DNA from: Chamaelirium japonicum
Lineage: Eukaryota; Streptophyta; Magnoliopsida; Liliales; Melanthiaceae
DNA length: 64,000 nucleotides
Assembly (NCBI GenBank): GCA_947650365.1
Contig: OX393557.1
Coordinates: 558,001 to 622,000 of the forward strand
Direction of reading: 5' to 3'
Made by a program: the position numbers and the translations under genes. The notes under the pieces are model-generated. The model was not told the DNA's origin, did no database searches, and saw only the letters and a list, made by a program, of their open reading frames with translations. Shown here in pieces: positions 3,483-61,074 of the stretch. Each line of letters opens with the position of its first letter. Positions within the stretch are counted from its first letter, which is position 1.

Positions 3483-3950
3483 TACATGTACGAATGAATT
3501 TGAATGGATACATTCGTGCGAATGAATTAAAATGGATCGTATGAATGAATTAGATTGGATCGTATGCATGAATTACAATGGATCGTGCGAATGAATTAGA
3601 ATGGATCGTACGAATGAATTAGAATGGATCCAACGAATGAATTAGAATGGATACATTCGTGCAAAAGAATTAGAATAGATTGTATGAATGAATTAGAATG
3701 GATCGTGCGAATGAATTAGAATGGATCGTACGAATGAATTAGAATGGATACATTCGTTCGAAAGAATTAGAATAGATCGTATGAATGAATTAGAATGGAT
3801 CGTATGAATGAAATAGAATGGATCGTACGAATGAATTAGATTGGATCGTGCGAATGAATTAGAATGGATCGTACGAATGAATTAGAATGGATCGTACGAA
3901 GGAATTAGAATGGATCGTACGAATGAATTAGAAAGGATACATTCGAATTC
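3483..3950 (+). repeat. Partial inversion module: TACATGTA to GAATTC
   Basis: An R-to-F flip at the palindrome TACATGTA (3483-3490) is followed by an F block and an F-to-R flip at GAATTC (3945-3950). The centre-to-centre distance is 461 bp, as in the complete modules. The R arm beyond GAATTC differs and there is no 29-bp tag, so only the left half of the module is present. Confidence 0.8.
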
Positions 3951-6900
3951 ATTCGTACGATCCATTCTAATTCCTTCGTACGATCCATTCTAATTCATTC
4001 ATACGATCCATTCTATTTCATTCATACGATCCATTCTAATTCATTCATACGATCTATTCTAATTCTTTCGCACGAATGTATCCATTCTAATTCATTCGTA
4101 CGATCCATTCTAATTCATTCGCACGATCCATTCTAATTCATTCATACAATCCATTCTAATTCTTTTGCACGAATGTATCCATTCTAATTCATTCGTTCGA
4201 TCCATTCTAATTCATTCGTACGATCCATTCTAATTTATTCGTACGATCCATTCTAATTCCTTCGTACGATCCATTCTAATTCATTCGTACGATCCATTCT
4301 AATTCATTCGCACGATCCATTCTAATTCATTCGTACAATCCATTCAATTTCATTCGTACGATCCATTCTTACTCATTCGTATGATCCATTCTAATTCATT
4401 CGCACGAATGTATCCATTCTAATTCATTCGTACAATCCATTCTTACTCATTCGTAATGAATTAGAATGGATACATTCGTGCAAAAGAATTAGAATGGATT
4501 GTATGAATGAATTAGAATGGATCGTGCAAATGAATTAGAATGGATCGTGCGAATGAATTAGAATGGATCGTACGAATGAATTAGAATAGATTGTGCGAAT
4601 GAATTAGAATGGATCGTACGAATGAATTAGAATGGATACATTCGTGCGAATGAATTAGAATTAGAATGAATTGGAATGGATCATACAAATGAATTAGAGT
4701 GGATCGTACGAATGAATTAGAATGGATACATTCGTGCCAATGAATTAGAATGGATCTTACGAATGAGTAAGAATGGATCGTACGAATGAAATAGAATGGA
4801 TTGTACGAATAAATTAGAAAGGATTCATTCGTGCGAATGAATTAGAATGGATCGTACGAATGAATTAGAATGGATCGCACGAATAAATTAGAATGGATCG
4901 TGTGAAAGAATTAGAATGGATTGTATGAATGAATTAGAATGGATCGTATGAATGAATTAGAATGGATCGGACGAATGAATTAGAATGGATCGTACGAATG
5001 AATTAGAATGGATACATTCGTGCGAATGAATTAGAATGGATCATACGAATGAGTAAGAATGGATCGTACGAATGAAATAGAATGGCTTGTACGAATGAAT
5101 TAGAATGGATCGTACGAATGAATTAGAATAGATTGTATGAATGAATTAGAATGGATACATTCGTGCGAATGAATTAGAATGGATCGTACGAATGAATTAG
5201 AATAGATCGTACGAATGAATTAGAATGGATCGTACGAATGAATTAGAATAGATTGTGCGAATGAATTAGAATGGATCGTATGAATGAATTAGATTATGAT
5301 CCATTTTATTTCATTCGTATGATTTATTCTAATTCATTCGTACGATTCATTCTAATTCAATCCATTCTAATTCATTCGTACGATCCATTCTAATTCATTC
5401 GTACGATCCATTCTAATTCATTCGTACGATTCATTCTAATTCAATCCATTATAATTCATTCGTACGATCCATTCTTTCTCATTCGTACGATCCATTCTAA
5501 TTCATTCGCACAATAAATAAGAAAGGATCGTGCGAATGAATTAGAATGGATCATATGAATGAATTAGAATGGATCGTATGAATGAATTAGAATGGATCAT
5601 ACGAATGAATTAGAATGGATTCATTCGTGCGAATGAATTAGAATGGATCGTACGTATGAGTAAGAATGGATTGAATTAGAATGAATCGTACGAATGAATT
5701 AGAATGGATCGTACGAATAAATTAGAATGGATCATACGAATGAATTAGAATGGATTGAATTAGAATGAATCGTACGAATGAATTAGAATGAATCATACCG
5801 TACGAATGAATTAGAATGGATCATACGAAGGAATTAGAATGGATCGTACGAATGAATTAGAATGGATCGTATTAATGAATTAGAATGGATCGTGCGAATG
5901 AATTAGAATGGATCGTACGAATGAGTAAGAATGGATCGTGCGAATGAATTAGAATGGATCATATGAATGAATTAGAATGGATCGTATGAATGAATTAGAA
6001 TAGATCGTGCGAATAAATTAGAATGGATCGTATGAATGAATTAGAATAAATTGTGCGAATGAATTAGAATGGATCGTACGAATGAATTAGAAAGGATACA
6101 TTCATGCGAATGAATTAGAATGGATCGTATGAGTGTGAATGAATTAGAATGGATCGTATTAATGAATTAGAATGGATCGTGCGAATGAATTAGAATGGAT
6201 CGTACGAATGAGTAAGAATGGATCGTGCGAATGAATTAGAATGGATCATATGAATGAATTAGAATGGATCGTATGAATGAATTAGAATGGATCGTTCGAA
6301 TAAATTAGAATGGATCGTATGAATGAATTAGAATAGATTGTGCGAATGAATTAGAATGGATCGTACGAATGAATTAGAATGGATACATTCGTGCGAATGA
6401 ATTAGAATTTCGTACGATCCATTCTAATTCATTCGCACGATCCATTTTAATTCATTAATACGATCCATTCTAATTCATTGACACGATCCATTCTAATTCA
6501 TTCACACTCATACGATCCATTCTAATTCGTATGAATTAGAATGGATCGTATGAATGAATTAGAATGGATCATACGAATGAATTAGAATGGATCGTATGAA
6601 TGAATTAGAATGGATCGTGCGAATGAATTAGAATGGATTATATGAATGAAATAGAATGGATCATACGAATGAAATAGAATGGATCGTACGAAGGAATTAG
6701 AATGGATCGTATGAATGAATTAGAGTGGATACATTCGTGCGAATGAATTCAAATAGATCATGCGAATGAATTAGAATGGATTGTAAGAATGAATTAGAAT
6801 GGATCGTACGAATGAAATAGAATGGATCGTACGAATAAATTAGAATAGATACATTCGTGCAAAAGAAATGGAATGGATTGTATGAATGAATTAGAATGGA

Positions 6901-9900
6901 TCGTGTGAATGAATTAGAATGGATCATACGAATGAATTAGAATGGATACATTCGTGCGAATGAATTAGAATGGATCGTGCGAATGAATTAGAATGGATCG
7001 TGCGAATGAATTAGAATGGATCATACGAATGAATTAGAATGGATCGTGCGAATGAATTAGAATGGATCGTGCGAATGAATTAGAATGGATACATTCATGG
7101 GAATGAATTAGAATGGATCATACGAAAGAATTAGAATGGATCGTACGAAGGAATTAGAATGGATCGTTTGAGTGAATGCGATTGGATCGTATTAATGAAT
7201 TAGAATGGATCGTACGAATGAATTAGAATAGATCATACGAATGAATTAGAATGGATACATTCGTGCAAATGAATTAGTATGGATCGTATGAATGAATTAG
7301 AATGGATCGTGCGAATGAATTAGAATGGATCGTACGAATGAAATAGAATGGATTCGCACGAATGAATTAGAATGGATCATCTGAATGAATTAGAATGGAT
7401 CGTTTGAGTGAATGCGAATGGATCGTGCGAATGAATTAGAATGGATTGTACGAATGAATTAGAATGGATCGTACGAATGAATTAGAATGGATACATTCGT
7501 GCGAATCCATTCTATTTCATTCGTACGATCCATTCTAATTCATTCGCACGATCCATTCTAATTCATTCATACGATCCATTCTAATTCATTCGTACGATCC
7601 ATTCTAATTCACTCGTACGATCCATTCTAATTCATTCGCACAATCTATTCTAATTCATTCGTACGATCCATTCTAATTTATTCGCACGATCCATTCTAAT
7701 TCATTCATACGATCCATTCTATTTTATTCGTATGATCCATTCTTACTCATTCGTACGAACCATTCTAATTCATTTACACAAAGGTATCCATTCTAATTCA
7801 TTCGTACTATCCATTCTAATTCCTTCGTCGATCCATTCTAATTCCTTCGTACGAATGAGTAAGAATGGATAGTACGAATGAATTAGAATGGATCATACGA
7901 ATGAATTAGAATGGATCGTACGAAGGAATTAGAATGGATTGTATGAATGAATTAGAATAGATCGTATGAATGAATTAGAATGGATCTTACGAATGAATTA
8001 GAAAGGAACGTACGAATGAATTAGAATGGATACATTCGTGCAAATGAATTAGAATGGATACATTCATGGGCATGAATTAGACTGGATCGTACAAAGGAAT
8101 TAGAATGGATCATACGAATGAAATATAATGGGTCGTACAAAGGAATTAGAATGGATCGTACATAGGAATTAGAATGGTTTGTACGAAGGAATTAGAATGG
8201 ATCGTACGAATGAATTAGAATGGATACATTCGTGCGACTGAATTAGAATGGATCGTACGAATGAGTAAGAATGGATCGTACGAATGAAATAGAATGGATC
8301 GTACGGATGAATTAGAATGGATCGTGTGAATGAATTAGAATGGATCGTACGAATGAGTAAGAATGGATCGTATGAATGAATCGTACGAATGAATTAGAAT
8401 GGATCGTACGAATGAATTAGAATGGATTGAATTAAAATGAATCGTACGAATGAATTAGAATGAATCATACCGTACGAATGAATTAGAATGGATCATACGA
8501 AGGAATTAGAATGGATCGTACGAATGAATTAGAATGGATCGTACGAATGAATTAGAATGGATCGTACGAATGAATTAGCATTGATCGTGCTAATGAATTA
8601 GAATGGAACGTACGAATGAATTAGAATGGATCGTATGAATGAATTAGATTGGATCGTATGAATGAGTTAGAATGGATACATTTCGTACGATCCATTCTAA
8701 TTCATTCGTACGATCTATTCTAATTCATTCATGCAATCCATTCTAATTCATTCGTACGTACGATCCATTCTAATTCATTCGTACGATCCATTCTAATCCC
8801 TTCGTATGATCCATTCTAATTCATTCGTACGGTATGATTCATTCTAATTCATTCGTACGATTCACTCTAATTCAATCCATTCTAATTCATTCGTACGATC
8901 CATTCTAATTTATTCATACGATCCATTCTAATTCATTCGTACGATCCATTCTAATTTCTTCGTATCGATCGTGCGAATGAATTAGAATGGATCGTACGAA
9001 TGAATTAGAATAGATTGTGCGAATGAATTAGAATGGATCGTACGAATGAATTAGAATGGATCGTACGAATGAATTAGAATGGATCGTACGAATGAATTAG
9101 AATGGATCGTGCGAATGAATTAGAATGGATCGTACGAATGAAATAGAATGGATTCGCACGAATGTATCCATTCTAATTCATTCGTACGATCCATTCTAAT
9201 TCATTCGTACAATCCATTCTAATTCATTCGCACGATCCATTCGCATTCACTCAAACGATCCATTCCAATTCATTCATATTAATTCATACGACCCATTCAA
9301 ATAGATTCGTGCGAATGAATTTGAATGGATCGTACGAAGGAATTAGAATGGATCGTACGAAGGAATTAGAATAGATCATAAGAAGAAATTAGAATGGATC
9401 GTATGAATGAATTAGAATGGATCGTATGAATGAATTAGAATGGATCGTGCGAATGAATTAAAATGGATCGTATGAATGAATTAGAATGGATCGTATGAAT
9501 GAATTAGAATGGATCAGGCGAATGAATTAGAATGGATCGTACGAATGAAATAGAATGGATTCGCACGAATGTATCCGAATGGATCGTACGAAGGAATTAG
9601 AATGGATCGTACGAAGGAATTAGAATAGATAGTACGAATGAATTAGAATGGATACCTTCGTGCAAATGAATTAGAATGGATCGTACGAATGAGTAAGAAT
9701 GGATCGTACGAATGAAATAGAATGGATCGTATGAATGAATTAGAATGGATCGTGCGAATGAATTAGAATGGATCGTACGAATGAATTAGAATAGATTGTG
9801 CGAATGAATTAGAATGGATCGTACGAATGAATTAGAATGGATCGTCCAAATGAATTAGAATGGATCGTATGCATGAATTAGAATGGATCGTGCGAATGAA

Positions 9901-9986
9901 TTAGAATGGATCGTACGAATGAATTAGAATGGATCGTACGAAGGAATTAGAATGGATCGTACGAATGAATTAGAAAGGATACATTC

Positions 9987-10179
9987 GAATTCATTCGTAC
10001 GATCCATTCTAATTCCTTCGTACGATCCATATTCTAATTCATTCGCACGATCCATTCTAATTCATTCACACGATCCATTCTAATTCATTCATACGATCCA
10101 TTCTAATTCATTCATTCACACAATCCATTCTAATTCATTCTAATTTATTCGTATGTGAGTGGATCGTGTTTTTTCGTGC
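9987..10179 (+). repeat. Partial inversion module: GAATTC to 29-bp tag
   Basis: An F-to-R flip at GAATTC (9987-9992) is followed by a short R block and the 29-bp tag (10151-10179), which begins GTATGTGAGTGG, has six T and ends CGTGC. The GAATTC-to-tag distance is 164 bp instead of 160. The four extra bases are one additional TTCA in the R arm. Confidence 0.8.
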
Positions 10180-10421
10180 TAATGAATTAGAATGGATCGT
10201 ACGAATGAATTAGAATGGATACATTCATGCGAAAGAATTAGAATGGATCGTATGAATGAATTAGATTGGATACATTCGTGCAAATGAATTAGAATAGATA
10301 CATTCATGGGAATGAATTAGACTGGATCGTACAATGGAATTAGAATGGATCATACGAATGAAATATAATGGATCGTACGAATGAATTAGAATAGATCGTA
10401 CGAATGAATTAGAATGGATAT

Positions 10422-10921
10422 GAATGGATCGTACGAATGAGTAAGAATGGATCGTACGAATGAAATAGAATGGATTGTACGAATGAATTAGAATGGATAC
10501 ATTCGTGCGAATGAATTAGGATGGATCGTATGAATGAATTAGAATAGATTGTGCGAATGAATTAGAATGGATCGTACGAATGAATTAGAATGGATACATT
10601 CATGCGAATGAATTAGAATGGATCGTATGAATGAATTAGAATGGATCGTATGAGTGAACTAGATTGGATACGAATGGATCGTACGAATGAGTAAGAATGG
10701 ATCGTACGAATGAAATAGAATGGATTGTACGAATGAATTAGAATGGATACATTCGTGCGAATGAATTAGGATGGATCGTATGAATGAATTAGAATAGATT
10801 GTGCGAATGAATTAGAATGGATCGTACGAATGAATTAGAATGGATACATTTATGCAAATGAATTAGAATGGATCGTATGAATAAATTAGAATGGATCGTA
10901 TGAGTGAATTAGAATGGATAC
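10422..10921 (+). repeat. Tandem duplication of a 250-bp satellite segment
   Basis: The sequence starting at 10422 recurs at 10672 with the same succession of unit variants: GAGTAAG, GAAATAG, GATTGTACG, a 28-bp unit, TTAGGATGG, AGATTGTGCG, and a final GTATGAGTGAA unit. It is a recent duplication of eleven or so units, visible because the variant order is shared. Confidence 0.75.
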
Positions 10922-13900
10922 GAAGGAATTAGAATGGATCGTACGAAGGAATTAGAATGGAGAATGGATCGTGCGAATGAATTAGAATGGATCGTGCGAT
11001 AAGAATGGATCATACGAATAAAATAGAATCGATCGTACGGATAAATGAATTTGGATCGTGCTAATGAATTAGAATGGATCGTACGAATGAATTAGAATGG
11101 ATCGTACAAATGAATTAGAATAGATTGTTCGAATGAATTAGAATGGATCGTACGAATGAATTAGAAAGGATATATTCGTGCGAATGAATTAGAATAGATC
11201 GTATGAATGAATTCGATTGGATCGTATTAATGAATTAGAATGGATCGTGCGAATGAATTAGAATGGATCGTACGAATGAATTAGAATGGATAGATTCGTG
11301 CGAATGAATTTGAATGGATCGTACGAAGGAATTAGAATGGATCGTACGAAGGAATTAGAATAGATCATACGAAGAAATTAGAATGGATCGTACGAATGAA
11401 TTAGAAATGGATCGTATGAATGAATTAGAATGGATCGTGCGAATGAATTAAAATGGATCGTATGAATGAAATAGAATGGATCGTATGAATTAGAATGGAT
11501 CGTACGAATGAAATAGAATGGATCGTACGAATGAATTAGAATAGATTGTGCGAATGGAATTAGAATGGATCGTACGAATGAATTAGAATGGATCATACGA
11601 ATGAATTAGAATGGATCGTTCGAATGAATTAGAATAGATTGTGCGAATGAATTAGAATGGATCGTACGAATGAATTAGAAAGGATACATTCGTGCGAATG
11701 AATTAGAATGGATCGTATGAGTGTGAATGAATTAGAATGGATCGTGCGAATGAATTAGAATGGATTGTATTAATGAATTAGAATGGATCGTGCGAATGAA
11801 TTAGAATGGATCGTACGAATGAGTAAGAATGGATCGTGCGAATGAATTAGAATGGATCATATGAATGAATTAGAATAGATCGTATGAATGAATTAGAATG
11901 GATCGTGCGAATAAATTAGAATGGATCGTATGAATGAATTAGAATAGATTGTGCGAATGAATTAGAATGGATCGTACGAATGAATTAGAATGGATACATT
12001 CGTGCGAATGAATTAGAATGGATCGTATGAATGAATTAGAATCGATCGTACGAATGAATTAGAATGGATCATGCGAATGAATTAGAATGGATCGTGCGAA
12101 TGAATTAGAATGGATCGTACGAATGAAATAGAATGGATTGTACGAATGAGATAGAATGGATCGTACGAATGAATTAGAATGGATACATTCATGCGAATGA
12201 ATTAGAATGGATCATACGGATGAATTAGAATGGATTCATTCGTGCGAATGAATTAGAATGGATCGTACGAATGAGTAAGAATGGATCGTACGATTGAATT
12301 AGAATGGGTTGAATTAGAATAAATCGTACGAATGAATTAGAATGGATCGTACGAATGAATTAGAATGGATCGTACGAATGAATTAGAATGGATTGAATTA
12401 GAATGAATCGTACGAATGAATTAGAATGAATCATACCGTACGAATGAATTAGAATGGATCATACGAAGGAATTAGAATGGATTGTACGAATGAATTAGAA
12501 TAGATCGTACGAAGGAATTAGAATGGATCGTACGAAGGAATTAGAATGGATAGTACGAATGAATTAGAATGGATACCTTCGTGCAAATGAATTAGAATGG
12601 ATTGTACGAATGAGTAAGAATGGATCGTACGAATGAAATAGAATGGATCGTATGAATGAATTAGAATGGATCGTGCGAATGAATTAGACTGGATTGTACG
12701 AATGAATTAGAATAGATTGTGCAAATGAATTAGAATGGATCGTACGAATGAATTAGAATGGATCGTACGAATGAATTAGAATGGATCGTATGAATGAATT
12801 AGAATGGATCGTGCGAATGCATTAGAATGGATCGTACGAATGAAATAGAATGGATTCGCACGAATGTATCCATTCTAATTCATTCGTACGATCCATTCTA
12901 ATTCATTCGTACAATCCATTCTAATTCATTCGCACGATCCATTCGCATTCACTCAAACGATTCATTCTAATTCATTCATATAATCCATTCTAATTCATTC
13001 GCACGAATGTATCCATTCTAATTCATTCATACGATCCATTCTAATTCATTTGTACGAATGTATCCACTCTAATTCATTCATACGATCCATTCTAATTCAT
13101 TCGCACGAATGTATCCATTCCAATTAATTCGTACGATCCATTCTAATTCATTCGCACAATCTATTCTAATTCATTCGTACGATCAATTCTAATTCATTAG
13201 CATGATCCATTCTAATTCATTCGTACGATCTATTCTATTTGATTCGTACAATCCATTCTTACTCAATCGTATGATCCATTCTAATCCATTCGCACAATCT
13301 ATTCTAATTCATTCGTACGATCCATTCTATTTTATTCGTACGATCCATTCTAATTCATACGATCTATTCTATTTCATTCATACGATCCATTTTAATTCAT
13401 TCGCACGATCCATTCTAATTCATTCATACGATCCATTCGAATTCATTCGTACGATCCATTCTAATTTCTTCGTATGATCTATTCTAATTCCTTCGTACGA
13501 TCCATTCTAATTCCTTCGTACGATCCATTCAAATTCATTCGCATGAATCTATCCATTCTAATTCATTCGTACGATCCATTCTAATTCATTCGCACGATCC
13601 ATTCTAATTCATTAATACGATCCAATCTAATTCATTCATACGATCTATTCTAATTCATTCACACGAATATATCCTTTCTAATTCATTCGTACGATCCATT
13701 CTAATTCATTCGCACAATCTATTCTAATTCATTAGTATGATCCATTCTAATTCATTCGTACGATCCATTCTAATTCATTAGCACGATCCAAATTCATTTA
13801 TCCGTACGATCTATTCTATTTCATTCGTACGATCCATTCTTATCGCACGATCCATTCTAATTCATTCGCACGATCCATTCTCCATTGTAATTCCTTCGTA

Positions 13901-15894
13901 CGATCCATTCTAATTCCTTCGTATCCATTCTAATTCACTCATACGATCCATTCTAATTCATTCATACGATCCATTCTAATTCATTCGCATGAATGTATCC
14001 ATTCTAATTCATTCGTACGATCCATTCTAATTCATTCGCACAATCTATTCTAATTCATTCATACGATCCATCCTAATTCATTCGCATAAATGTATCCATT
14101 CTAATTCATTCGTATAATCCATTCTATTTCATTCGTACGATCCATTCTTACTCATTCGTACGATCCATTCGTATCCATTCTAATTCATTCGTACGATCTA
14201 TTCTAATTCATTCGTACGATCCATTCTAATTCATTCATTCGATCCATTCTAATTCATTCGCACGAATGTATCCATTCTAATTCATTCGTACGATCCATTC
14301 TAATTCATTCGCACAATCTATTCTAATTCATTCATACGATCCATTCTAATTTATTCGCACGATCCATTCTAATTCATTCATACGATCCATTCTAATTCAT
14401 TCATATGATCCATTCAATTTCATTCGTACGATCCATTCTAATTCATTCGCATTATCCATTCTTATTCATTCATACGATCCATTGTAATTCATTCGTACGA
14501 TCCATTCTAATTCATTCGTACGATCCATTCTAATTCATTCGCACAATCTATTCTAATTCATTCGTACGATCCATTCTAATTCATTCGCATGATCCATTCT
14601 AATTCATTCATACGATCCATTCTATTTCATTCGTACGATCCATTCTTACTCATTCGTACGATCCATTCTAATTCATTTGCACGAAGGTATCCATTCTAAT
14701 TCATTCGTACTATCCATTCTAATTCCTTCGTACGATCCATTCTAATTCCTTCGTACGATCCATTCTAATTCATTCGTACGATCCATTCTAATTCATTCGT
14801 ATGATCCATTCTAATTCCTTCGTATGATCCATTCTAATTCATTTGTATGGTATGATTCATTCTAATTCATTCGTACGATTCATTCTAATTCAATCCATTC
14901 TAATTCATTCGTACGATCCATTCTAATTCATTCGTACGATCGATTCTAATTCATTCGTACGATTCATTCTAATTCAATCCATTCTAATTCATTCGTACGA
15001 TCCATTCTTACTCATTCGTACGATCCATTCTAATTCATTCGTATGATCCATTCTAATTCATTCGCATGAATGTATCCATTCTAATTCATTCGTATGATCC
15101 ATTCTATCTCATTCGTACAATCCATTCTATTTCATTCGTACGATCCATTCTAATTCATTTGCACGATCCATTCTAAATCATTCGCATGATCCATTCTAAT
15201 TCATTCGTACGATCGATTCTAATTCATTCAAATGATCCATTCTAATTCATTCGGACGAATGTATCCATTCTAATTCATTCGTACGATCCATTCTAATTCA
15301 TTCGCATAATCTATTCTAATTCATTCATATGATCCATTCTAATTTATTCGCAAGATCCATTCTAATTCATTCATACGATCCATTCTAATTCATTCATATG
15401 ATCCATTCTAATTCATTCGCACGATCCATTCTTACTCATTCGTACGATCCATCCTAATTCATTCGCACGATCCATTCTAATTCATTAATACGATCCATTC
15501 TAATTCATTCGCACGATCCATTCTAATTCATTCACACTCATACGATACATTCTAATTCATTCGCACGAATGTATCCTTTCTAATTCATTCGTACGATCCA
15601 TTCTAATTCATTCGCACAATCTATTCTAATTCATTCGAACGATCCATTCTAATTCATTCGTACGATCCATTCTAATTCATTCATACGATCCATTCTAATT
15701 CATTCGCATGATCCATTCTAATTCATTCGCACGATCCATTCTAATTCATTAGCACGATCCATTCTAATTCATTCGTACGATCCATTCTAATTCATTTATA
15801 CGATCCAACCTAATTCATTCATACGATCCATTCTAATTCTTTCGTACGAATGTATCCATTCTAATTGATTTGTACGATCCATTCTAATTCATTA

Positions 15895-16545
15895 GCACGA
15901 AAAAACACGATCCACTCACATACGAATAAATTAGAATGAATTAGAATGGATTGTGTGAATGAATTAGAATGGATCGTATGAATGAATTAGAATGGATCGT
16001 GCGAATGAATTAGAATGGATCGTGCGAATGAATTAGAATATGGATCGTACGAAGGAATTAGAATGGATCGTACGAATGAATTCGAATGTATCCTTTCTAA
16101 TTCATTCGTACGATCCATTCTAATTCCTTCGTACGATCCATTCTAATTCATTCGTACTATCCATTCTAATTCATTCGCACGATCCATTCTAATTCATTCG
16201 TACGATCCATTCTATTTCATTCATACGATCCATTCTAATTCATTCATACGATCTATTCTAATTCTTTCGCACGGATGTATCCATTCTAATTCATTCATAT
16301 GATCCATTCTAATTCATTCGCACGATCCATTCTAATTCATTCATACAATCCATTCTAATTCTTTTGCACGAATGTATCCATTCTAATTCATTCGTTCGAT
16401 CCATTCTAATTCATTCGTACGATCCATTCTAATTCATTCGCACGATCCATTCTAATTCATGCATACGATCCAATCTAATTCATTCATACGATCCATTCTA
16501 ATTCATTCGCACGAATGTATCCATTCTAATTCATTCGTACATGTA
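15895..16545 (-). repeat. Complete 651-bp inversion module, reversed copy
   Basis: Read on the minus strand this is TACATGTA (16538-16545), F block, GAATTC (16078-16083), R block, then the 29-bp tag (15895-15923). The TACATGTA-GAATTC centres are 461 bp apart, and GAATTC and tag are 160 bp apart, identical to the plus-strand copies. Confidence 0.85.
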
Positions 16546-26435: not shown

Positions 26436-26516
26436 TGTTGGGGGTAGTCAAAAACCACATATCTTGGATAGCCCGTCCAGGAGTTGGAACCCTTGGAAGC
26501 CGAGCGTGCCCCTTTT

Positions 26517-47900: not shown

Positions 47901-48246
47901 ATTCTAATTCATTCGCACGAATGTATCCTTTCTAATTCATTCGTACGATCCATTCTAATTCATTCGCACAATCTATTCTAATTCATTCGAACGATCCATT
48001 CTAATTCATTCGTACGATCCATTCTAATTCATTCGTACGATCCATTCTAATTCATTCGCACGATCCATTCTAATTCATTCGCATGATCCATTCTAATTCA
48101 TTAGCACGATCCATTCTAATTCATTCGTACGATCCATTCTAATTCATTTATACGATCCAATCTAATTCGTTCATACGATCCATTCTAATTCTTTCGCACG
48201 AATGTATCCATTCTAATTCATTCATACGATCCATTCTAATTCATTA

Positions 48247-48897
48247 GCACGAAAAAACATGATCCACTCACATACGAATAAATTAGAATGAATTAGAATG
48301 GATTGTGTGAATGAATTAGAATGGATCGTATGAATGAATTAGAATGGATCGTGCGAATGAATTAGAATGGATCGTGCGAATGAATTAGAATATGGATCGT
48401 ACGAAGGAATTAGAATGGATCATACGAATGAATTCGAATGTATCCTTTCTAATTCATTCGTACAATCCATTCTAATTCCTTCGTACGATCCATTCTAATT
48501 CATTCGTACGATCCATTCTAATTCATTCGCACGATCCATTCTAATTCATTCGTACGATCCATTCTTTTTCATTCATACGATCCATTCTAATTCATTCATA
48601 CGATCTATTCTAACTCTTTCGCACGAATGTATCCATTCTAATTCATTCGTACGATCCATTCTAATTCATTCGCACGATCCATTCTAATTCATTCATACAA
48701 TCCATTGTAATTCTTTTGCACGAATGTATCCATTCTAATTCATTCGTTCGATCCATTCTAATTCATTCGTACGATCCATTCTAATTCATTCGCACGATCC
48801 ATTCTAATTCATGCATACGATCCAATCTAATTCATTCATACGATCCATTCTAATTCATTCGCACGAATGTATCCATTCTAATTCATTCGTACATGTA
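48247..48897 (-). repeat. Complete 651-bp inversion module, reversed copy
   Basis: The reverse complement of the tag (48247-48275), GAATTC (48430-48435) and TACATGTA (48890-48897) have the same 160 and 461 bp spacings as the plus-strand copies. Confidence 0.85.
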
Positions 48898-49845
48898 TGA
48901 ATGAATTAGAATGGATCGTAGAATGAATTAGAGTTGATACATTCGTGCGAATGAATTAGAATGGATCGTACGAATGAATTAGATTGGATCGTATGAATGA
49001 ATTATAATGGATCATGCGAATGAATTAGAATAGATCATACGAATGAATTAGAATGGATCGTACGAATGAATTAGAATGGATACATTCATGCAAAAGAATT
49101 AGAATGGATTGTATGAATGAATTAGAATGCATCGTGCGAATGAATTAGAATAGATACATTCGTGCGAATGAATTAGAATGGATCGTATGAATGAATTAGA
49201 TTGGATCGTATGAATGAATTAAATGGATCGTATGAATGAATTAGAATGGATCATACGAATGAATTAGAATGGATCGTATGAATGAATTAGAATGGATTGT
49301 ACGAATGAATTAGAATGGATCGTTTGAATGAATTAGAATGGATCGTACTTATGAATTAGAATGGGTCATACGAATGAAATAGAATGGATCGTACGAAGGA
49401 ATTAGAATGGATCGTACAAACGAATTAGAATGGATCGTATGAATGAAATAGAATAGATCGTACAAATGAATTAGAATGGATCGTATGAATGAATTAGATT
49501 GGATCGTATGAATGAATTAGAATGGATTGTACGAATGAAATAGAATAGATCGTACGAATGAAATAGAATGGATCGTACGAATGAATTAGAATAGATTGTG
49601 CGAATGGATTAGAATGGATCATACGATTGAGTAAGAATGGATTGTACGAATGAAATAGAATAGATCGTACGAATGAATTAGAATGGATCGTATGAATGAA
49701 TTAGAATGGATCGTGCAAATGAATTAGAATCGATCGTACGAATGAATTAGAATGGATCGTATGAATGAATTAGAATGGATCGTAGTAATGAATTAGAATG
49801 GATCCTACGAATGAATTAGAATAGATAGTGCGAATGAATTAGAAT

Positions 49846-49864
49846 GGATCTGGATCGTGTATCC
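49846..49864 (+). repeat. F-to-R junction motif
   Basis: An exact copy of GGATCTGGATCGTGTATCC at an F-to-R flip. Confidence 0.75.
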
Positions 49865-51672
49865 ATTCTAATTCATTCGTACGACCCATTCTAATTCATT
49901 CGCACGATCCATTCTAATTCATTCGTACGATCTATTCTATTTCATTCGTACAATACATTCTAATTCATTCATACGATCCAATCTAATTCATTCATACGAT
50001 CCATTCTAATTCATTCGTACGATCTATTCTATTTCATTCATACGATCCATTCTAATTCGTTTGTACGATCATACGAAGGAATTAGAATGGATCGTACGAA
50101 TGAATTAGAATAGATCGTACGAATGAATTAGAATGGATCGTACGAAGGAATTAGAATGGATCGTACGAAGGAATTAGAATGGATAGTACGAATGAATTAG
50201 AATGGATACCTTCGTGAAAATGAATTAGAATGGATCATACGAATGAATTAGAATGGATCGTATGAATGAATTAGAATGGATCGTGCGAATGAATTAAAAT
50301 GGATCGTATGAATGAAATAAAATAGATCATATGAATTAGAATGGATCATACGAGTGAAATAGAATGGATCATACGAATGAATTAGAATAGATTGTGCGAA
50401 TGGATTTGAAAGGATCATACGATTGAGTAAGAATGGATTGTACGAATGAAATAGAATAGATCGTACGAATGAATTAGAATGGATCATGCTAATGAATTAG
50501 AATTGATCGTATGAATGAATTAGAATAGATTGTGCGAATGAATTAGAATGGATCGTACGAATGAATTGGAATGGATACATTCGTGCGAATGAATTAGAAT
50601 GGATCGTATGAATGAATTAGAGTGGATACATTCGTACAAATGAATTAGAATGGATCGTACGAATGAATTAGAATGGATACATTCGTGCGAATGAATTAGA
50701 ATGGATCATATGAATGAATTAGAATGGATCGTTTGAGTGAATGCGAATGGATCGTGCGAATGAATTAGAATGGATTGTACGAATGAATTAGAATGGATCG
50801 TACGAATGAATTAGAATGGATACATTTGTGCGAATCCATTCTATTTCATTCGTACGATCCATTCTAATTCATTCGCATGATCCATTCTAATTCATTCGTA
50901 CGATCCATTCTAATTCATTCGTATGATCCATTCTAATTCATTCGCACAATCTATTCTAATTCATTCGTACGATCCATTCTAATTCATTCGCACGATCCAT
51001 TCTAATTCATTCATACGATCCATTCTATTTCATTCGTACGATCCATTCTTACTCATTCGTACGATCCATTCTAATTCATTTGCACGAAGGTATCCATTCT
51101 AATTCATTCGTACTATCCATTCTAATTCCTTCGTACGATCCATTCTAATTCCTTCGTACGATCCATTCTAATTCATTCGTACGATCCATTCTAATTCATT
51201 CATACGATCCATTCTAATTCCTTCGTATGATCCATTCTAATTCATGCGTACGGTATGATTCATTCTAATTCATTCGTACGATTCATTCTAATTCAATCCA
51301 TTCTAATTCATTCGTACGATCCATTCTAATTCATTCGTACGATCCATTCTAATTCATTCGTACGATTCATTCTAATTCAATCCATTCTAATTCATTCGTA
51401 CAATCCATTCTTACTCATTCGTATGATCCATTCTAATTCATTCGCACGAATGAATCCATTCTAATTCATTCGTATGATCCATTCTAATTCATTCGCATGA
51501 ATGTATCCATTCTAATTCATTCGTACGATAGAATGGATCGTATGATTGAATTAGATTGGATCGTATGAATGAATTAGAATGGATTGTACGAATGAAATAG
51601 AATAGATCGTACGAATGAATTAGAATGGATCGTGCGAATGTATTAGAATGGGTCGTATGAATGAATTAGAAT

Positions 51673-51691
51673 GGATACACGATCCAGATAA
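51673..51691 (-). repeat. F-to-R junction motif, reversed, diverged end
   Basis: A reversed junction motif whose last two bases read AA instead of CC. It lies at an F-to-R flip. Confidence 0.7.
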
Positions 51692-52613
51692 ATTCTAATT
51701 CATTCGCACAATCTATTCTAATTCATTCGTAGGATCCATTCTAATTCATTACTACGATCCATTCTAATTCATTCATACGATCCATTCTAATTCATTCGTA
51801 CGATCCATTCTAATTCATTCGCACGATCCATTCTAATTCATTCATACGATCCATTCTAATTCATTCGTACGATCTATGCTATTTCATTCGTACAATCCAT
51901 TCTTACTCAATCGTATGATCCATTCTAATCCATTCGCACAATCTATTCTAATTCATTCGTACGATCCATTCTATTTCATTCGTACGATCTATTCTATTTC
52001 ATTCGTACAATCCATTCTAATTCATTCATACGATCCAATCTAATTCATTCATACGATCCATTCTAATTCATTCGTACGATCTATTCTATTTCATTCATAC
52101 GATCCATTCTAATTCGTTTGTACGATCCTTTCTAATTCCTTCGTACGATCCATTCTATTTCATTCGTATGACCCATTCTAATTCATAAGTATGATCCATT
52201 CTAATTCATTCAAATGATCCATTCTAATTCATTCGTACAATCCATTCTAATTCATTCATACGATCCATTCTAATTCATTCGTATGATCCATTCTAATTCA
52301 TTCATACGATCCATTCTAATTCATTCATACGATCCAATCTAATTCATTCATACGATCCATTCTAATTCATTCGCACGAATGTATCCATTCTAATTCATTC
52401 GCACGATCCATTATAATTCATTCATACGATCCAATCTAATTCATTCGTACGATCCATTCTAATTCATTCGTACGATCCATTCTAATTCATTCGCATGATC
52501 CATTATAATTCATTCATACGATCCAATCTAATTCATTCGTACGATCCATTCTAATTCATTCGCACGAATGTATCAACTCTAATTCATTCGTACGATCCAT
52601 TCTAATTCATTCA

Positions 52614-53264
52614 TACATGTACGAATGAATTAGAATGGATACATTCGTGCGAATGAATTAGAATGGATCGTATGAATGAATTAGATTGCATCATATGCAT
52701 GAATTAGAATGGATCGTGCGAATGAATTAGAATGGATCGTACGAATGAATTAGAATGGATCGAACGAATGAATTAGAATGGATACATTCGTGCAAAAGAA
52801 TTAGAATGGATTGTATGAATGAATTAGAATGGATCGTGCGAATGAATTAGAATGGATCGTACGAATGAATTAGAATGGATACATTCGTGCGAAAGAATTA
52901 GAATAGATCGTATGAATGAATTACAATGGATCGTATAAATGAAATAGAATGGATCATACGAATGAATTAGAATGGATCGTGCGAATGAATTAGAATGGAT
53001 CGTACGAATGAATTAGAATGGATCGTACGAAGGAATTAGAATGGATCGTACGAACGAATTAGAAAGGATACATTCGAATTCATTCGTACGATCCATTCTA
53101 ATTCCTTCGTACGATCCATATTCTAATTCATTCGCACGATCCATTCTAATTCATTCGCACGATCCATTCTAATTCATTCATACGATCCATTCTAATTCAT
53201 TCACACAACCCATTTTAATTCATTCTAATTTATTCGTATGTGAGTGGATCGTGTTTTTTCGTGC
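52614..53264 (+). repeat. Complete 651-bp inversion module
   Basis: TACATGTA (52614-52621), GAATTC (53076-53081) and the tag (53236-53264) have the standard 461 and 160 bp spacings. Confidence 0.85.
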
Positions 53265-56200
53265 TAATGAATTAGAATGGATCGTACGAATGAATTAGAA
53301 TGGATACATTCGTGCGAAAGAATTAGAATGGATCGTATGAATGAATTAGATTGGATCGTATAAATGAATTAGAATAGATCGTACGATTGAATTAGAATGG
53401 ATCGTGCTAATGAATTAGAATGGATCGTGCGAATGGATCGTGCGAATGAATTAGAATGGATCGTGCGAATGAATTAGAATGGATCGTACGAATGAATTAG
53501 AATGGATCGTTCGAATGAATTAGAATAGATTGTGCGAATGAATTAGAATGGATCGTACGAATGAATTAGAAAGGATACATTCGTGCGAATGAATTAGAAT
53601 GGATCGTATGAGTGTGAATGAATTAGAATGGATCGTGCGAATGAATTAGAATGGATCGTATTAATGAATTAGAATGGATCGTGCGAATGAATTAGAATGG
53701 ATCGTACGAATGAGTAAGAATGGATCGTGCGAATGAATTAGAATGGATCATATGAATGAATTAGAATGGATCGTATGAATGAATTAGAATGGATCGTGCG
53801 AATAAATTAGAATGGATCGTATGAATGAATTAGAATAGATTGTGCGAATGAATTAGAATGGATCGTATGAATGTATTAGAATGGATACATTCGTGCGAAT
53901 GAATTAGAATGGATCGTATGAATGAATTAGAATCGATCGTATGAATGAATTAGAATGGATCATGCGAATGAATTAGAATGGATCGTGCGAATGAATTAGA
54001 ATGGATCGTACGAATGAAATAGAATGGATTGTACGAATGAGATAGAATGGATCGTACGATCAATTCTAATTCATTCGTACGATCAATTCTAATTCATTAG
54101 CATGATCCATTCTAATTCATTCGTACGATCTATTCTATTTCATTCGTACAATCCATTCTTACTCAATCGTATGATCCATTCTAATCCATTCGCACAATCT
54201 ATTCTAATTCATTCGTACGATCCATTCTATTTCATTCGTACGATCCATTCTAATTCATACGATCCATTCTATTTCATTCATACGATCCATTTTAATTCAT
54301 TCGCACGATCCATTCTAATTCATTCATACGATCCATTCTAATTCATTCGTACGATCCATTCTAATTTCTTCGTATGATCTATTCTAATTCCTTCGTACGA
54401 TCCATTCTAATTCTATTGTACGATCCATTCAAATTCATTCGCACGAATCTATCCATTCTAATTCATTCGTACGGTCCATTCTAATTCATTCGCACGATCC
54501 ATTCTAATTCATTAATACGATCCAATCTAATTCATTCATACGATCTATTCTAATTCATTCGCACGAATATATCCTTTCTAATTCATTCGTACGATCCATT
54601 CTAATTCATTCGCACAATCTATTCTAATTCATTAGTATGATCCATTCTAATTTATTCGTACGATCCATTCTAATTCATTAGCACGATCCAAATTCATTTA
54701 TCCGTACGATCTATTCTATTTCATTCGTACGATCCATTCTTATCGCACGATCCATTCTAATTCATTCGCACGATCCATTCTCCATTCTAATTCCTTCGTA
54801 CGATCTATTCTAATTCCTTCATATCCATTCTAATTCACTCATACGATCCATTCTAATTCATTCATACGATCCATTCTAATTCATTCGCATGAATGTACCC
54901 ATTCTAATTCATTCGTACGATCCATTCTAATTCATTCGCACAATCTATTCTAATTCATTCATACGATCCATCCTAATTCATTCGCACGAATGTATCCATT
55001 CTAATTCATTCGTACAATCCATTCTATTTCATTCGCACAATCCATTCTAATTCATTCGCACAATCTATTCTAATTCATTCGTACGATCAATTCTAATTCA
55101 TTAGCATGATCCATTCTAATTCATTCGTACGATCTATTCTATTTCATTCGTACAATCCATTCTTACTCAATCGTATGATCCATTCTAATCCATTCGCACA
55201 ATCTATTCTAATTCATTCGTACGATCCATTCTATTTCATTCGTACAATCCATTCTAATTCATACGATCCATTCTATTTCATTCATACGATCCATTTTTAT
55301 TCATTCGCACGATCCATTCTAATTCATTCATACGATCCTTTCTAATTAATTCGTAGGATCCATTCTAATTTCTTCGTATGATCTATTCTAATTCCTTCGT
55401 ACGATCCATTCTAATTCCTTTGTACGATCCATTCAAATTCATTCGCACGAATCTATCCATTCTAATTCATTCGTACGATCCATTCTAATTCATTCGCACG
55501 ATCCATTCTAATTCATTAATACGATCCAATCTAATTCATTCATACGATCTATTCTAATTCATTCGCACGAATATATCCTTTCTAATTCATTCGTACGATC
55601 CATTCTAATTTATTCGCACAATCTATTCTAATTCATTAGTACGATCCATTCTAATTCATTCGTACGATCCATTCTAATTCATTAGCACGATCCAAATTCA
55701 TTTATCCGTACGATCTATTCTATTTCATTCGTACGATCCATTCTTATCGCACGATCCATTCTAATTCATTCGCACGATCCATTCTCCATTCTAATTCCTT
55801 CGTACGATCCATTCTAATTCCTTCGTATCCATTCTAATTCACTCATACGATCCATTCTAATTCATTCATACGATCCATTCTAATTCATTCGCATGAATGT
55901 ATCCATTCTAATTCATTCGTACGATCCATTCTAATTCATTCGCACAATCTATTCTAATTCATTCATACGATCCATCCTAATTCATTCGCACGAATGTATC
56001 CATTCTAATTCATTCGTACAATCCATTCTATTTCATTCGTACGATCCATTCTTACTCATTCTTACGATCCATTCGTATCCATTCTAATTCATTCGTACGA
56101 TCTATTCTAATTCATTCGTACGATCCATTCTAATTCATTAATACGATCCAATCTAATTCATTCATACGATCCATTCCAATTCATTCGTACGATCTATTCT

Positions 56201-59070
56201 AATTCTTTCATACGATCCATTCTTCCTCATTCGTACGATCCATTCTAATTCATTCGCACGATCCATTCTAATTCATCCGTACGATCCATTCTATTTCATT
56301 CATACGATCCATTCTTACTCATTCGTACGATCCATTCTAATTCATTCGCACGAATGTATCCATTCTAATTCATTCGTACGATCCATTCTAATTCCTTCGT
56401 ACAAACCATTCTAATTCCTGCGTACGATCTATTCTAATTCCTTTGTACAACCCATTATATTTCATTCGTATGATCCATTCTAATTCCTTTGTACGATCCA
56501 GTCTAATTCATTCCCATGAATGTATCCATTCTAATTCATTTGCACGAATGTATCCATTCTAATTCATTCGTACGATCCATTCTAATTCATTCGTACGTTC
56601 CATTCTAATTCATTCGTAAGATCCATTCTAATTCATTCATACGATCCATTCTAATTCATTCACACAATCCATTCTAATTCATTCTAATTTATTCGTATGT
56701 GAGTGGATCGTGTTTTTTCGTGCTAATGAATTAGAATGGATGGTACGAATGAATTAGAATGGATACATTCGTGCGAAAGAATTAGAATGGATCGTATGAA
56801 TGAATTAGATTGGATCGTATAAATGAATTAGAATGGATCGTACGATTGAATTAGAATGGATCGTGCTAATGAATTAGAATGGATCGTGCGAATGAATTAG
56901 AATGGATCGTGCGAATGAATTAGAATGGATCGTACGAATGAATTAGAATGGATCGTTCGAATGAATTAGAATAGATTGTGCGAATGAATTAGAATGGATC
57001 GTACGAATGAATTAGAAAGGATACATTCGTGCGAATGAATTAAAATGGATCGTATGAGTGTGAATGAATTAGAATGGATCGTGCGAATGAATTAGAATGG
57101 ATCGTATTAATGAATTAGAATGGATCGTGCGAATGAATTAGAATGGATCGTACGAATGAGTAAGAATGGATCGTGCGAATGAATTAGAATGAATCATATG
57201 AATGAATTAGAATGGATCGTATGAATGAATTAGAATGGATCGTGCGAATAAATTAGAATGGATCGTATGAATGAATTAGAATAGATTGTGCGAATGAATT
57301 AGAATGGATCGTACGAATGAATTAGAATGGATACATTCGTGCGAATGAATTAGAATGGATCGTATGAATGAATTAGAATCGATCGTATGAATGAATTAGA
57401 ATGGATCATGCGAATGAATTAGAATGGATCGTGCGAATGAATTAGAATGGATCGTACGAATGAAATAGAATGGATTGTACGAATGAGATAGAATGGATCG
57501 TACGATCAATTCTAATTCATTCGTACGATCAATTCTAATTCATTAGCATGATCCATTCTAATTCATTCGTACGATCTATTCTATTTCATTCGTACAATCC
57601 ATTCTTACTCAATCGTATGATCCATTCTAATCCATTCGCACAATCTATTCTAATTCATTCGTACGATCCATTCTATTTCATTCGTACGATCCATTCTAAT
57701 TCATACGATCCATTCTATTTCATTCATACGATCCATTTTAATTCATTCGCACGATCCATTCTAATTCATTCATACGATCCATTCTAATTCATACGTACGA
57801 TCCATTCTAATTTCTTCGTATGATCTATTCTAATTCCTTCGTACGATCCATTCTAATTCCTTTGTACGATCCATTCAAATTCATTCGCACGAATCTATCC
57901 ATTCTATTTTATTCGTACGATCCATTCTAATTCATTCGCACGATCCATTCTAATTCATTAATACGATCCAATCTAATTCATTCATACGATCTCTTCTAAT
58001 TCATTCGCACGAATATATCCTTTCTAATTCATTCGTACGATCCATTCTAATTCATTCCCACAATCTATTCTAATTCATTAGTACGATCCATTCTAATTCA
58101 TTCGTACGATCCATTCTAATTCATTAGCACGATCCAAATTCATTTATCCGTACGATCTATTCTATTTCATTCGTACGATCCATTCTTATCGCACGATCCA
58201 TTCTAATTCATTCGCACGATCCATTCTCCATTCTAATTCCTTCGTACGATCCATTCTAATTCCTTCGTATCCATTCTAATTCACTCATACGATCCATTCT
58301 AATTCATTCATACGATCCATTCTAATTCATTCGCATGAATGTATCCATTCTAATTCATTCGTACGATTCATTCTAATTCATTCGCACAATCTATTCTAAT
58401 TCATTCATACGATCCATCCTAATTCATTCGCACGAATGTATCCATTCTAATTCATTCGTACAATCCATTCTATTTCATTCGTACGATCCATTCTTACTCA
58501 TTCGTACGATCCATTCGTATCCATTCTAATTCATTCGTACGATCTATTCTAATTCATTCGTACGATCCATTCTAATTCATTAATACAATCCAATCTAATT
58601 CATTCATACGATCCATTCCAATTCATTCGTACGATCCATTCTAATTCATTCATACGATCCATTCTTCCTCATTCGTACGATCCATTCTAATTCATTCGCA
58701 CGATCCATTCTAATTCATCCGTACGATCCATTATATTTCATTCGTACGATCCATTCTTACTCATTCGTACGATCCATTCTAATTCATTCGCACGAATGTA
58801 TCCATTCTAATTCATTCGAACGATCCATTCTAATTCCTTCGTACAAACAATTCTAATTCATGCGTACGATCCATTCTAATTCTTTTGTACGACCCATTAT
58901 ATTTCATTCGTATGATCCATTCTAATTCCTTTGTACGATCCAGTCTAATTCATTCCCATGAATGTATCCATTCTAATTCATTTGCACGAATGTATCCATT
59001 CTAATTCATTCGTACGATCCATTCTAATTCATTCGTACGTTCCATTCTAATTCATTAGTAAGATCCATTC
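53236..59070 (+). repeat. Nested kilobase-scale segmental duplications in the satellite
   Basis: A recognisable R block containing ACTCAATCG and, about 600 bp on, AATTCATTTATCCG occurs three times: the second marker is at 54696, 55700 and 58142. Offsets are 1004, 2442 and 3446 bp, and the same offsets separate the 5' parts of the blocks. The F segment after the tag at 53236 matches that after 56695. Similar blocks occur near 13200, 20680 and 21700, and inverted near 46170 and 50250. This is what unequal exchange between higher-order repeats leaves. Confidence 0.75.
56695..56723 (+). repeat. 29-bp T-run tag without its module
   Basis: The tag GTATGTGAGTGG ... TTTTTT ... CGTGC again marks an R-to-F flip, but the R block before it is long and lacks the GAATTC junction. 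The downstream F block matches that after the 53236 tag, so this copy came by segmental duplication. Confidence 0.8.
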
Positions 59071-60373
59071 TAATTCATTCGCACGATCCATTCTAATTCA
59101 TTAATACGATCCAATCTAATTCATTCGTACGATCCATTCTAATTAATTCGTACGAATGTATCCACTCTAATTCATTCATACGATCCATTCTAATTCATTC
59201 GTATGATCCATTCTATTTCATTCGTATGATCCATTCTAATTCCTTCGTACGATCCATTCTTATTCATTCCCATGAATGTATCCATTCTAATTCATACGTA
59301 AGATCCATTCTAATTCATTTATACGATCCAATCTAATTCATTCATACAATCCATTCTAATTCATTCGCACGAATTTATCCATTCTAACTCGTTCGTACGA
59401 TCCATTCGAATTCATTCGCACGAATGTATCCATTCTAATTCATTCGTACGATCCATTCCGTGCGAATGAATTAGAATGCATCATACGAATGAATTAGAAT
59501 GGATATATTCGTGCAAATGAATTAGAATAGATCGTACGAATGAATTAGAATAGATCGTACGAATGAATTAGAATGGATTGTATGAATGAATTAGATTAGA
59601 TTGTATAAATGAATTAGAATGGATCGTACGAATGAATTAGAATGGATACATTCGTGCGAATGATTTAGAATGGATCGTACGAATGAATTAGAATAGATTG
59701 TGCGAATGAATTAGAATGGATCGTATGAATTAGAATTGATCGTACGAATGAATTAGAATGGGTCATACGAAGGATTTAGAATGGATCGTACAAATGAATT
59801 AGAATGGATCGTACGAATGAATTAGAATGGATACATTCGTGCGAATGAATTAGAATGGATCATACGAAGGAATTAGAATGGATCGTACGAATGAATTAGA
59901 ATGGATCATACGAATGAATTAGAATGGATACATTCGTGCGAATGAATTAGAATGGATCATACGAAGGAATTAGAATGGATCGTACGAATGAATTAGAATG
60001 GATCGTACGAATGAATTAGAATGGATCGTACAAATGAATTAGAATGGATACATTCGTGCGAATGAATTAGAATGGATCATACGAATGAATTAGAGTTGAT
60101 ACATTCGTGTGAATGAATTAAAATGGATAATACGAATGAGTAAGAATGGATCGTAGAATTAGAATGGATCGTATGAATGAATTAGAATGGATACATACGA
60201 ATGAAATAGAATGGATCGTATGAATGAATTAGAATGGATCATGCGAATGAATTAGAATGGATCGTACGAATGAATTAGAATGGATCGTATGAATGAATTA
60301 GAATGGATCATAGTAATGAATTAGAATGGATCCTACGAATGAATTAGAATAGATTGTGCGAATGAATTAGAAT

Positions 60374-60392
60374 GGATCTGGATCGTGTATCC
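60374..60392 (+). repeat. F-to-R junction motif
   Basis: An exact copy of GGATCTGGATCGTGTATCC at an F-to-R flip, followed by the same R units as at 49861. Confidence 0.75.
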
Positions 60393-61066
60393 ATTCTAAT
60401 TCATTCGTACGACCCATTCTAATTCATTCGCACGATCCATTCTAATTCATTCGTACGATCTATTCTATTTCATTCGTACAATCCATTCTAATTCATTCAT
60501 ACGATCCAATCTAATTCATTCATACGATCCATTCTAATTCATTCGTACGATCTATTCTATTTCATTCATACGATCCATTCTAATTCGTTTGTACGATCCT
60601 TTCTAATTCCTTCGTACGATCCATTCTATTTCATTCGTATGACCCATTCTAATTCATAAGTACGATCCATTCTAATTCATTCAAACGATCCATTCTAATT
60701 CATTCGTACGATCCATTCTAATTCATTCGCACGATCCATTCTAATTCATTCATACGATCCAATCTAATTCATTCATACGATCCATTCTAATTCATTCGCA
60801 CGAATGTATCCATTCTAATTCATTCGCACGATCCATTCTAATTCATTCATACAATCCATTCTAATTCTTTTGCACGAATGTATCCATTCTAATTCATTCG
60901 TACGATCCATTCTAATTCATTCGTATGATCTATTCTAATTCATTCGCATGATCCATTATAATTCATTCATACGATCCAATCTAATTCATTCGTACGATCC
61001 ATTCTAATTCATTCGCACGAATGTATCAACTCTAATTCATTCGTATGATCCATTCTAATTCATTCA

Positions 61067-61074
61067 TACATGTA
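61067..61074 (+). repeat. TACATGTA inversion junction
   Basis: This is an R-to-F flip at TACATGTA preceded by CATTCA, as in the complete modules. The first few hundred bases of the F block follow the module, then diverge. No GAATTC or tag follows at the expected distance. Confidence 0.75.

Follow-up and report, generated by a model that had tools for sequence, protein, structure and literature searches.

How does a satellite built of very short tandem monomers come to carry the same inverted junctions again and again, at the same distances from one another and in both orientations? The question is raised by a window of 64,000 nucleotides (558001–622000 of a scaffold here called C9) from the assembly of Chamaelirium japonicum (GCA_947650365.1, contig OX393557.1), of which about 51 kb is satellite array. 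An original prediction, made from the letters of this window, held that a module of about 650 bp with opposing arms is copied as a package, and that the package is itself sometimes inverted. Our detailed examination covers this window, 20 loci picked by hand and a single tandem locus, all as assembly sequence. We find that the fixed spacings belong to shared blocks that often run well past the module. The explanation that we favour as a whole, and that we consider probable, is that such blocks of a Chio array are copied by homology without regard to orientation, and that rare orientation switches hitch-hike along with them.

The satellite array and its orientation switches

The array consists of a dominant 23-bp monomer, GAATGAATTAGAATGGATCGTAC, and a 28-bp variant, GAATGAATTAGAATGGATACATTCGTGC, in alternating orientation, and it lies in a left part (1..26435) and a right part (39475..64000), neither of which is assigned a strand. 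The 28-mer differs from the 23-mer by an additional ACATT and by a change of CGTAC to CGTGC, found in 62 of 65 instances of the motif that was searched. There are 669 exact copies of TTCGTACGA in the window, and in the whole assembly the exact 23-mer occurs 1,110,541 times in forward and 1,124,000 times in reverse orientation. In the passages of published work that we compared (here and below, papers are cited for such passages), the holocentromere satellite of Chionographis japonica is described as Chio1 (23 bp) and Chio2 (28 bp), which differ by 5 bp and one substitution, form arrays of mixed forward and reverse orientation and make up 16% of the genome; the arrays are associated with CENH3, and alternating orientation is among their features (PMC10264360). 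Chio also contains TTCGTACGA, which it shares with the Chama satellite (PMC12722358). Because the monomer structure and the TTCGTACGA motif agree with this description, the array is very probably the Chio1/Chio2 satellite, and with it part of a holocentromere unit of Chionographis japonica, a holocentric relative of the lilies; alongside the monomer pair and the motif, the window has the mixture of forward and reverse orientation (60 switches), and the satellite is abundant genome-wide. Two fragments of the window consensus were not found in the main text of PMC10264360, which points to a figure and a supplementary table, and an exact 41-base satellite pattern had no match in the viral contigs or genome contigs searched.

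Arms and switches were called by a circular hidden-Markov decomposition of the window, which yields 62 arms of 12 to 3,390 bp, many of them in succession, and 60 points at which the orientation changes. Three switches in the first 85 bp were excluded and the other 57 were sorted by junction motif, partly by eye. Of these, 41 fall into six recurrent types, namely A (TACATGTA, 8 copies), B (GAATTC, 9), C (a short tag, 9), D (GGATACACGATCCAGAT, 6), E (GGATACATTCGTGCGAATCC, 7) and F (2), while 16 are single. Type D stands at 17220..17236 (+) and at 24885 (-), 41404 (+), 49848 (-), 51673 (+) and 60376 (-); type E stands at 46739..46758 (+) and at 7489 (+), 9150 (-), 12852 (-), 20328 (-), 50818 (+) and 62135 (-); and the two switches of type F, at about 54059 and 57505 (span 54054..57510, +), lie within a direct duplication of about 3.45 kb. 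An additional match to the E motif, at 9557 inside an arm, was excluded from the count. Twelve of the 16 single switches fall within 1199-9306, where the mean number of copies at 95% identity or more is about 1 to 7 per 1-kb bin and mostly below that of the remaining array; it may be an older or differently connected stretch. With these twelve omitted, the signed order of switches along the window, in which a prime marks the reversed form and x a single switch, reads A B E E' B C E' C' B' A' D A B C E' C' B' x D' A B C (LTR element) D A B C E C' B' A' D' x E x D A B C F C F x D' A E', where LTR stands for long terminal repeat.

The tag that defines type C, found at 10157-10184 and at eight other places, consists of a piece of monomer with T6 after it. 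The window has ten runs of at least six T or A, of which the tags account for nine and the retrotransposon for one; because such runs in the array are confined to the nine tags, all of these would descend from one event. The idea that the tag is foreign DNA was rejected, as its fragment matches the monomer (GAGTGGATCGTG against GAATGGATCGTG) and the T6 alone is alien.

Types A, B and C are those between which the original prediction had seen fixed distances, and its coordinates and its spacings of 461 and 438 bp and of 160, 137 and 164 bp were all reproduced in both orientations. The centres of A and B are 461 bp apart at 3483, 16538 (reversed), 18189, 44318, 48890 (reversed) and 52614, and 438 bp, one 23-bp monomer less, at 25221; the eighth A, at 61067, has no B partner. 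GAATTC occurs at 18 sites, nine of them of the junction type, and eight of these nine have a tag at a fixed distance, the ninth (3945) having none. Measured from centre to centre, B and C are 177 bp apart at six places (160 in the earlier measure), 154 bp at 18651 (137) and 181 bp at 9987 (164). Six of the 11 places with A, B or C hold a full module: in the order A-B-C at 18189..18821 (+, with the B-C distance 23 bp shorter), 25221..25853 (+, with the A-B distance of 438 bp), 44318..44973 (+) and 52614..53269 (+), and in the reversed order C-B-A at 15890..16545 (-) and 48242..48897 (-). The other five are partial: A-B at 461 bp with no tag after it (3483..3950, +), B-C without A and 4 bp longer than usual (9987..10184, +), C-B without A, reversed (23725..23918, -), a tag alone (56701..56728, +) in a direct copy of 53091-55975, at a distance of about 3.45 kb and with 92% identity, and an A alone (61067..61074, +), which shares 291-397 bp rightward in six of its seven A pairs and 721 bp in one.

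This arrangement is far from what a shuffled set of junctions would give. When junction labels were shuffled, none of 100,000 trials reached the observed seven signed A-B neighbours or the eight signed B-C neighbours, and under a rough null phased at 23 bp the multiplicity of arm lengths alone gives P = 0.00015. Over the first 440 alignment columns, with gaps excluded, the eight A copies share 96.9-98.7% identity in their A-B arms, against 80.4% for phase-matched array segments (sd 3.8, maximum 89.3, n=150).

Shared blocks in the window and across the assembly

How far does this likeness extend around the junctions? Pairs of copies of types A to F were anchored at the switch, and the block was extended outward until the likelihood favoured background. 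For the 28 A pairs the median extent of the shared block is 1,428 bp on the right-hand side of TACATGTA and 467 bp on the left, with a maximum of 2.8 kb; shared blocks are mostly 96-99% identical, against the background of 80.4%. Because these extents exceed the module, the shared block often passes its borders. Elsewhere it ends short of them: upstream of the B at 23913, which has no A, sharing stops at 133–134 bp in seven of eight pairs and at 232 bp with 9987, and upstream of the B at 9987, also without A, it stops at 99–117 bp in four of eight pairs and at 232–472 bp in the remaining four. A partner is missing at two of the nine GAATTC junctions and at one of the eight TACATGTA junctions, and there the shared block stops inside the module.

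The modules are set in larger mirror images. About the D at 17220 lies one such block (14408..20331, no strand assigned), in which 14408-17223 matches 17511-20331 in inverted orientation at 94.4% over 2.8 kb, and about the E at 46739 lies another (43351..49850, likewise without strand), in which 43351-46452 matches the inverse of 46754-49850 at 93.4% over 3.1 kb. A comparison of the whole window with itself adds that 17014–22081 recurs inverted at 44970–50070 (5.1 kb, 91%). No two modules stand in tandem anywhere in the window. The predicted role of the ~650-bp stretch as the unit of copying is therefore not borne out here: blocks outrun the module, five of the 11 places are partial, and D and E order larger mirror-image blocks, of which the A-B-C module is a part rather than a bounded package. 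We had also considered that E acts as a flip-flop, with the loop inverting between its arms, and dropped this; no isomers are needed, because the three long-armed E loci (12852, 20328 and 46739) fit one unit copied whole in either orientation.

Across the assembly, the A core occurs 1,120 times on the + and 1,145 times on the − strand (2,265 in total), and a reversed-pattern control gave 0. The A–B pair at exactly 461 bp, this spacing alone being counted and a shorter A core being used than for the A-core count, occurs 294 times on the + and 297 times on the − strand (591; control 0), and the first 100 pairs listed are on scaffolds C2, C3 and C4. By our estimate, less than one such pair would be expected by chance in about 240 Mb of satellite, if B is as common as A and even if all sites keep the 23-bp register. 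In this respect the original prediction was right: inverted junctions are copied jointly and in either orientation, and the 461-bp spacing recurs hundreds of times genome-wide. The blocks also appear to travel between scaffolds, because an A locus on the 122-Mb scaffold C2 (L028) shares 5.8 kb at 98% with the A at 18189 in the window on C9. Mirrored A pairs 1,644 bp apart, the distance between 16538 and 18189, are found three times on C2 and C3 among 51 of 100 listed places that were compared, and the same 51 hold one further pair that is 23 bp shorter and one at 1,547 bp. On C3, same-direction A-B steps of about 9.0 kb (9,063, 9,041, 9,016 and 9,076 bp) were observed four times (at ~71.57-71.59 and 72.98-73.00 Mb), a hint of a long higher-order period.

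A different arrangement is found at C3:2318406–2322188, where six A sites follow one another at exact steps of 663 bp. Tandem Repeats Finder reports 6.9 copies of a 663-bp unit at this locus (L029:1407-5383 = C3:2318406-2322382) and gives a better score to a 1,326-bp dimer, in keeping with the greater likeness of alternate units. The unit has four switches, A, B and two more, with one arm of just 34 bp; five units compared differ at 3–8 of 663 sites, and in the A–B part they match the copies in the window at 89–99% identity. The predicted higher-order repeat of opposing arms thus exists as a true tandem on C3 and not in the window.

These observations bear on the alternative that survives best, namely that the A-B-C package of about 650 bp is itself amplified as a bounded higher-order repeat with opposing arms. 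Both the hundreds of exact 461-bp pairs and the near-identical tandem units on C3 speak for it. Against it stand the lack of tandem modules in the window, the homology that passes the module ends and the partial places, and also the sampled loci: at 20 A sites picked by hand on C1 and C2, a B lies within 900 bp at just seven (at 461 bp in four, 438 bp in two and 790 bp in one). On this balance we regard a bounded repeat as unlikely to be the general explanation.

Modes of copying

If blocks rather than modules are copied, what do the copies tell us of the process? Of 1,017 segments of 150 bp tried in the array, 1,014 had a match, the best being inverted for 534 and direct for 480, and for 82% of such segments there are one or more further copies with an identity of at least 95%. 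Copies at this level lie at a median distance of 13.7 kb, against 14.1 kb for random placement within the window (n=6,304), and 10.1% of them are within 3 kb, against 11.8% for random placement.

For the ends of blocks, we drew 197 distinct ends from the anchored pairs of A-E copies rather than from every block. Out-of-register intervals hold 6.6% of these ends, against 8.9% at random, which is no excess (P of the null reaching the observed value, 0.90), and beyond 89% of 271 pair ends the two copies stay in register. A phase-jump test, in which block ends had shown fewer jumps (11% against 21%), was set aside as confounded by the 28-bp monomers, and the out-of-register test was used in its place. 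Nor do block ends gather significantly at the switches, where 6.1% of them lie within 15 bp, against 3.9% (P=0.09), and 9.6% within 30 bp, against 7.4% (P=0.14).

The switches themselves behave much like the DNA around them. They are not over-copied: the 57 segments that contain a switch have a mean of 5.7 copies, against 7.0 under a circular-shift null (P of the null reaching the observed value, 0.99). Per segment, types A–E have 5–9 copies (partly by selection of the types), F has 2 and the singles 1–2, and the 886 segments without a switch have a median of 7. They are also not clearly more conserved, the minor-allele fraction being 1.0% (19/1,924) within 26 bp of the switch and 1.2, 1.1 and 1.4% in the three bins that follow; this count omits a B copy (3947) and a D copy (41412) whose flanks diverge early. 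The outermost bin, at 3.3%, probably holds block ends, and type D shows the opposite trend, with 2.3% at the switch and 0.8–1.2% beside it.

The explanation that we consider probable can now be set out. Orientation switches would arise rarely, through template switching or fold-back of a monomer that has many short dyads, and each recurrent type would probably have arisen once, most plainly the T6-tagged type C. Homology-directed exchange, by gene conversion or break-induced replication, would then have copied kilobase-sized blocks with several switches repeatedly, inside the array as well as from chromosome to chromosome, joining the repeats in register whichever way the donor block faced. 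The balance of inverted and direct copies, their independence of distance, the in-register ends and the lack of end enrichment at switches, taken together, are what point to homology-directed and orientation-blind copying. Because the switches are neither over-copied nor clearly more conserved than other array DNA, they would simply hitch-hike. The spacings of 461 and 160 bp, with their 23-bp variants, would be the trace of block copying and not of a bounded mobile module, the mirror-image blocks about D and E would form the larger frame, and one related 663-bp unit with four switches would have become a direct tandem higher-order repeat on another scaffold.

Several points weigh against this explanation. 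The bounded unit does hold at one place, the direct 663-bp tandem on C3, and in the 20 sampled loci the spacings of 461 (4) and 438 bp (2) outnumber any other, which makes the A-B arm at least a stable piece. The flanks shared around D and E are often short, at 100–200 bp (medians of 190 and 153 bp for D and of 193 and 140 bp for E, as raw extents with no matched control), which suggests that these switches persist where their arms are replaced. Block ends show a slight, non-significant excess near the switches, and ends in register are equally expected from unequal crossing-over. Modules in opposite orientation are 97.9% alike and those in the same orientation 97.6% (8 and 7 pairs of the six modules); this contrast is the most extreme of 15 relabellings, so that its P is no better than 1/15, and it could reflect extra pairing between mirror copies or arm-to-arm gene conversion between mirror modules.

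Two alternatives give the architecture itself a role. The bolder, to which we give about as little credit as to a bounded repeat, is that the plant has independently evolved a mirror architecture like that of Tribolium beetles, a genome-wide D-ABC-E-CBA-D lattice with fixed rulers that is exchanged between chromosomes either way, and that symmetry rather than the 23-bp sequence seeds or holds centromere chromatin. Somewhat more doubtful is plain selection, by which hairpins, cruciforms or symmetric chromatin would aid CENH3 loading and so preserve the mirror arms and their switch points, as has been proposed for the macro-dyad symmetries of Tribolium. In single-strand folding of one copy each, long stems form at A (z -9.9), B (-7.3), D (-6.2) and E (-13.2) and hardly at C (-1.7), with two mid-arm controls at 0.4 and -3.6; since any inverted pair of arms folds in this way, however, the folding is no independent evidence of function. 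The Chio arrays to which CENH3 binds do alternate in orientation and a like layout exists in beetles, yet the centromere arrays of the sister genus Chamaelirium are consistently oriented (PMC12722358), and by the values given above the switches are neither over-copied nor clearly more conserved than their flanks.

Local events alone, unequal crossing-over and slippage followed by a few inversions, would account for the data only with great difficulty. Such events do occur, as the 23-bp steps in length, the 663-bp tandem and the 3.45-kb direct duplication attest. But they give direct and neighbouring copies, whereas the nearest copy is inverted in 534 of 1,014 cases, copies are no nearer than random, and the 5.8-kb copy at 98% sits on another scaffold. 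An assembly artefact from fold-back or mis-joined reads, to which satellite arrays are prone, is hardly credible, as the long shared blocks mostly differ by 1-4% and not near 0, identical junctions and spacings are found in hundreds of copies on either strand, and a module of 0.65 kb is much shorter than the 14-26 kb of the libraries from which the C. japonica assembly is described as made (PMC10264360).

The array is split by a 13-kb Ty3-type LTR retrotransposon (26436..39474, +) with a 5-bp target duplication, GATTG, which stands outside the inversion system. Its two LTRs differ at 9 of 982 sites, and it encodes domains of gag, reverse transcriptase (RT), RNase H and integrase; RT-RNase H is followed by another RNase H-like domain. 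Two long open frames on the opposite strand (35033-36466 and 36463-37404) have no Pfam match, and five near-identical 78-bp tandem repeats, 96% matching, lie at 33579-33975. An invertase or mobile element as the mover of the switches was considered and dropped, since protein domains were found only in this LTR element, among frames listed for 26.0–39.6 kb only.

Described parallels and the holocentromere

Is such an architecture new? The original prediction knew of none in plant satellites, which is right only in part. The alternating orientation of Chio is published (PMC10264360, PMC12722358), a Chio-containing higher-order repeat cluster, CL73, is mentioned (PMC10264360), and conserved inversion sites are described in Tribolium (PMC13081366). 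The fixed-ruler layout itself was not found in print, and our literature search, confined to open-licence papers, found no report of inverted higher-order repeats with fixed spacing in plants. For Chio the passages compared describe alternation in general and do not contain the recurrent switch types, fixed spacings, mirror blocks or block copying seen in the window.

The nearest described parallel is that of the Tribolium macro-dyads. In Tribolium madens, TmSat1 and TmSat2 form macro-dyad symmetries with inverted subarrays of kilobase size, the inversion sites are conserved (INV_1a at 98.9%, INV_2 at 98.2%), a cassette is framed by fixed points with a variable number of repeats, and exchange between chromosomes is suggested; according to the authors no such symmetry is documented outside Tribolium, and in their view the conserved sites have structural significance (PMC13081366). 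One further paper, in the passage compared, names macro-dyads only in its reference list (PMC13427858). Common to the beetle and the plant are kilobase arrays of opposite orientation around an inversion point (here 14408-20331 and 43351-49850) and inversion sites that are alike, copies of one recurrent type here differing by about 1% near the switch, although 16 of the 57 switches in the plant are single. The differences are that T. madens mostly has two subarrays per array, with lengths tending to symmetry, against many successive arms here; that the sequences are unrelated, those of the beetle being derived from a 110-bp unit and the plant having one short satellite with about 60 switches in 51 kb; and that in copy number and divergence the plant switches are like the remaining array. 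The 1,061-bp satellite of Tribolium brevicornis, with inverted segments of about 470 bp (cited in PMC13081366), resembles the 663-bp unit on C3 as a higher-order unit of opposing arms, but its inverted arms are the monomer itself, whereas the arms on C3 are built from 23-bp monomers.

Since block copying alone can explain recurrent and conserved inversion sites, the conservation of switch points is not in itself evidence of function, a warning that applies to Tribolium as well. The 2,265 A cores and the 591 exact A–B pairs are a ready data set for both views, block copying and function. For the plant, the orientation switches act as directional tags in an otherwise uniform satellite and make the turnover of centromere DNA traceable. 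Through them, blocks seem to move by homology, in register, blind to strand and between chromosomes, and this bears on the question of how likeness is maintained among the roughly 100 centromere units of a holocentric plant.

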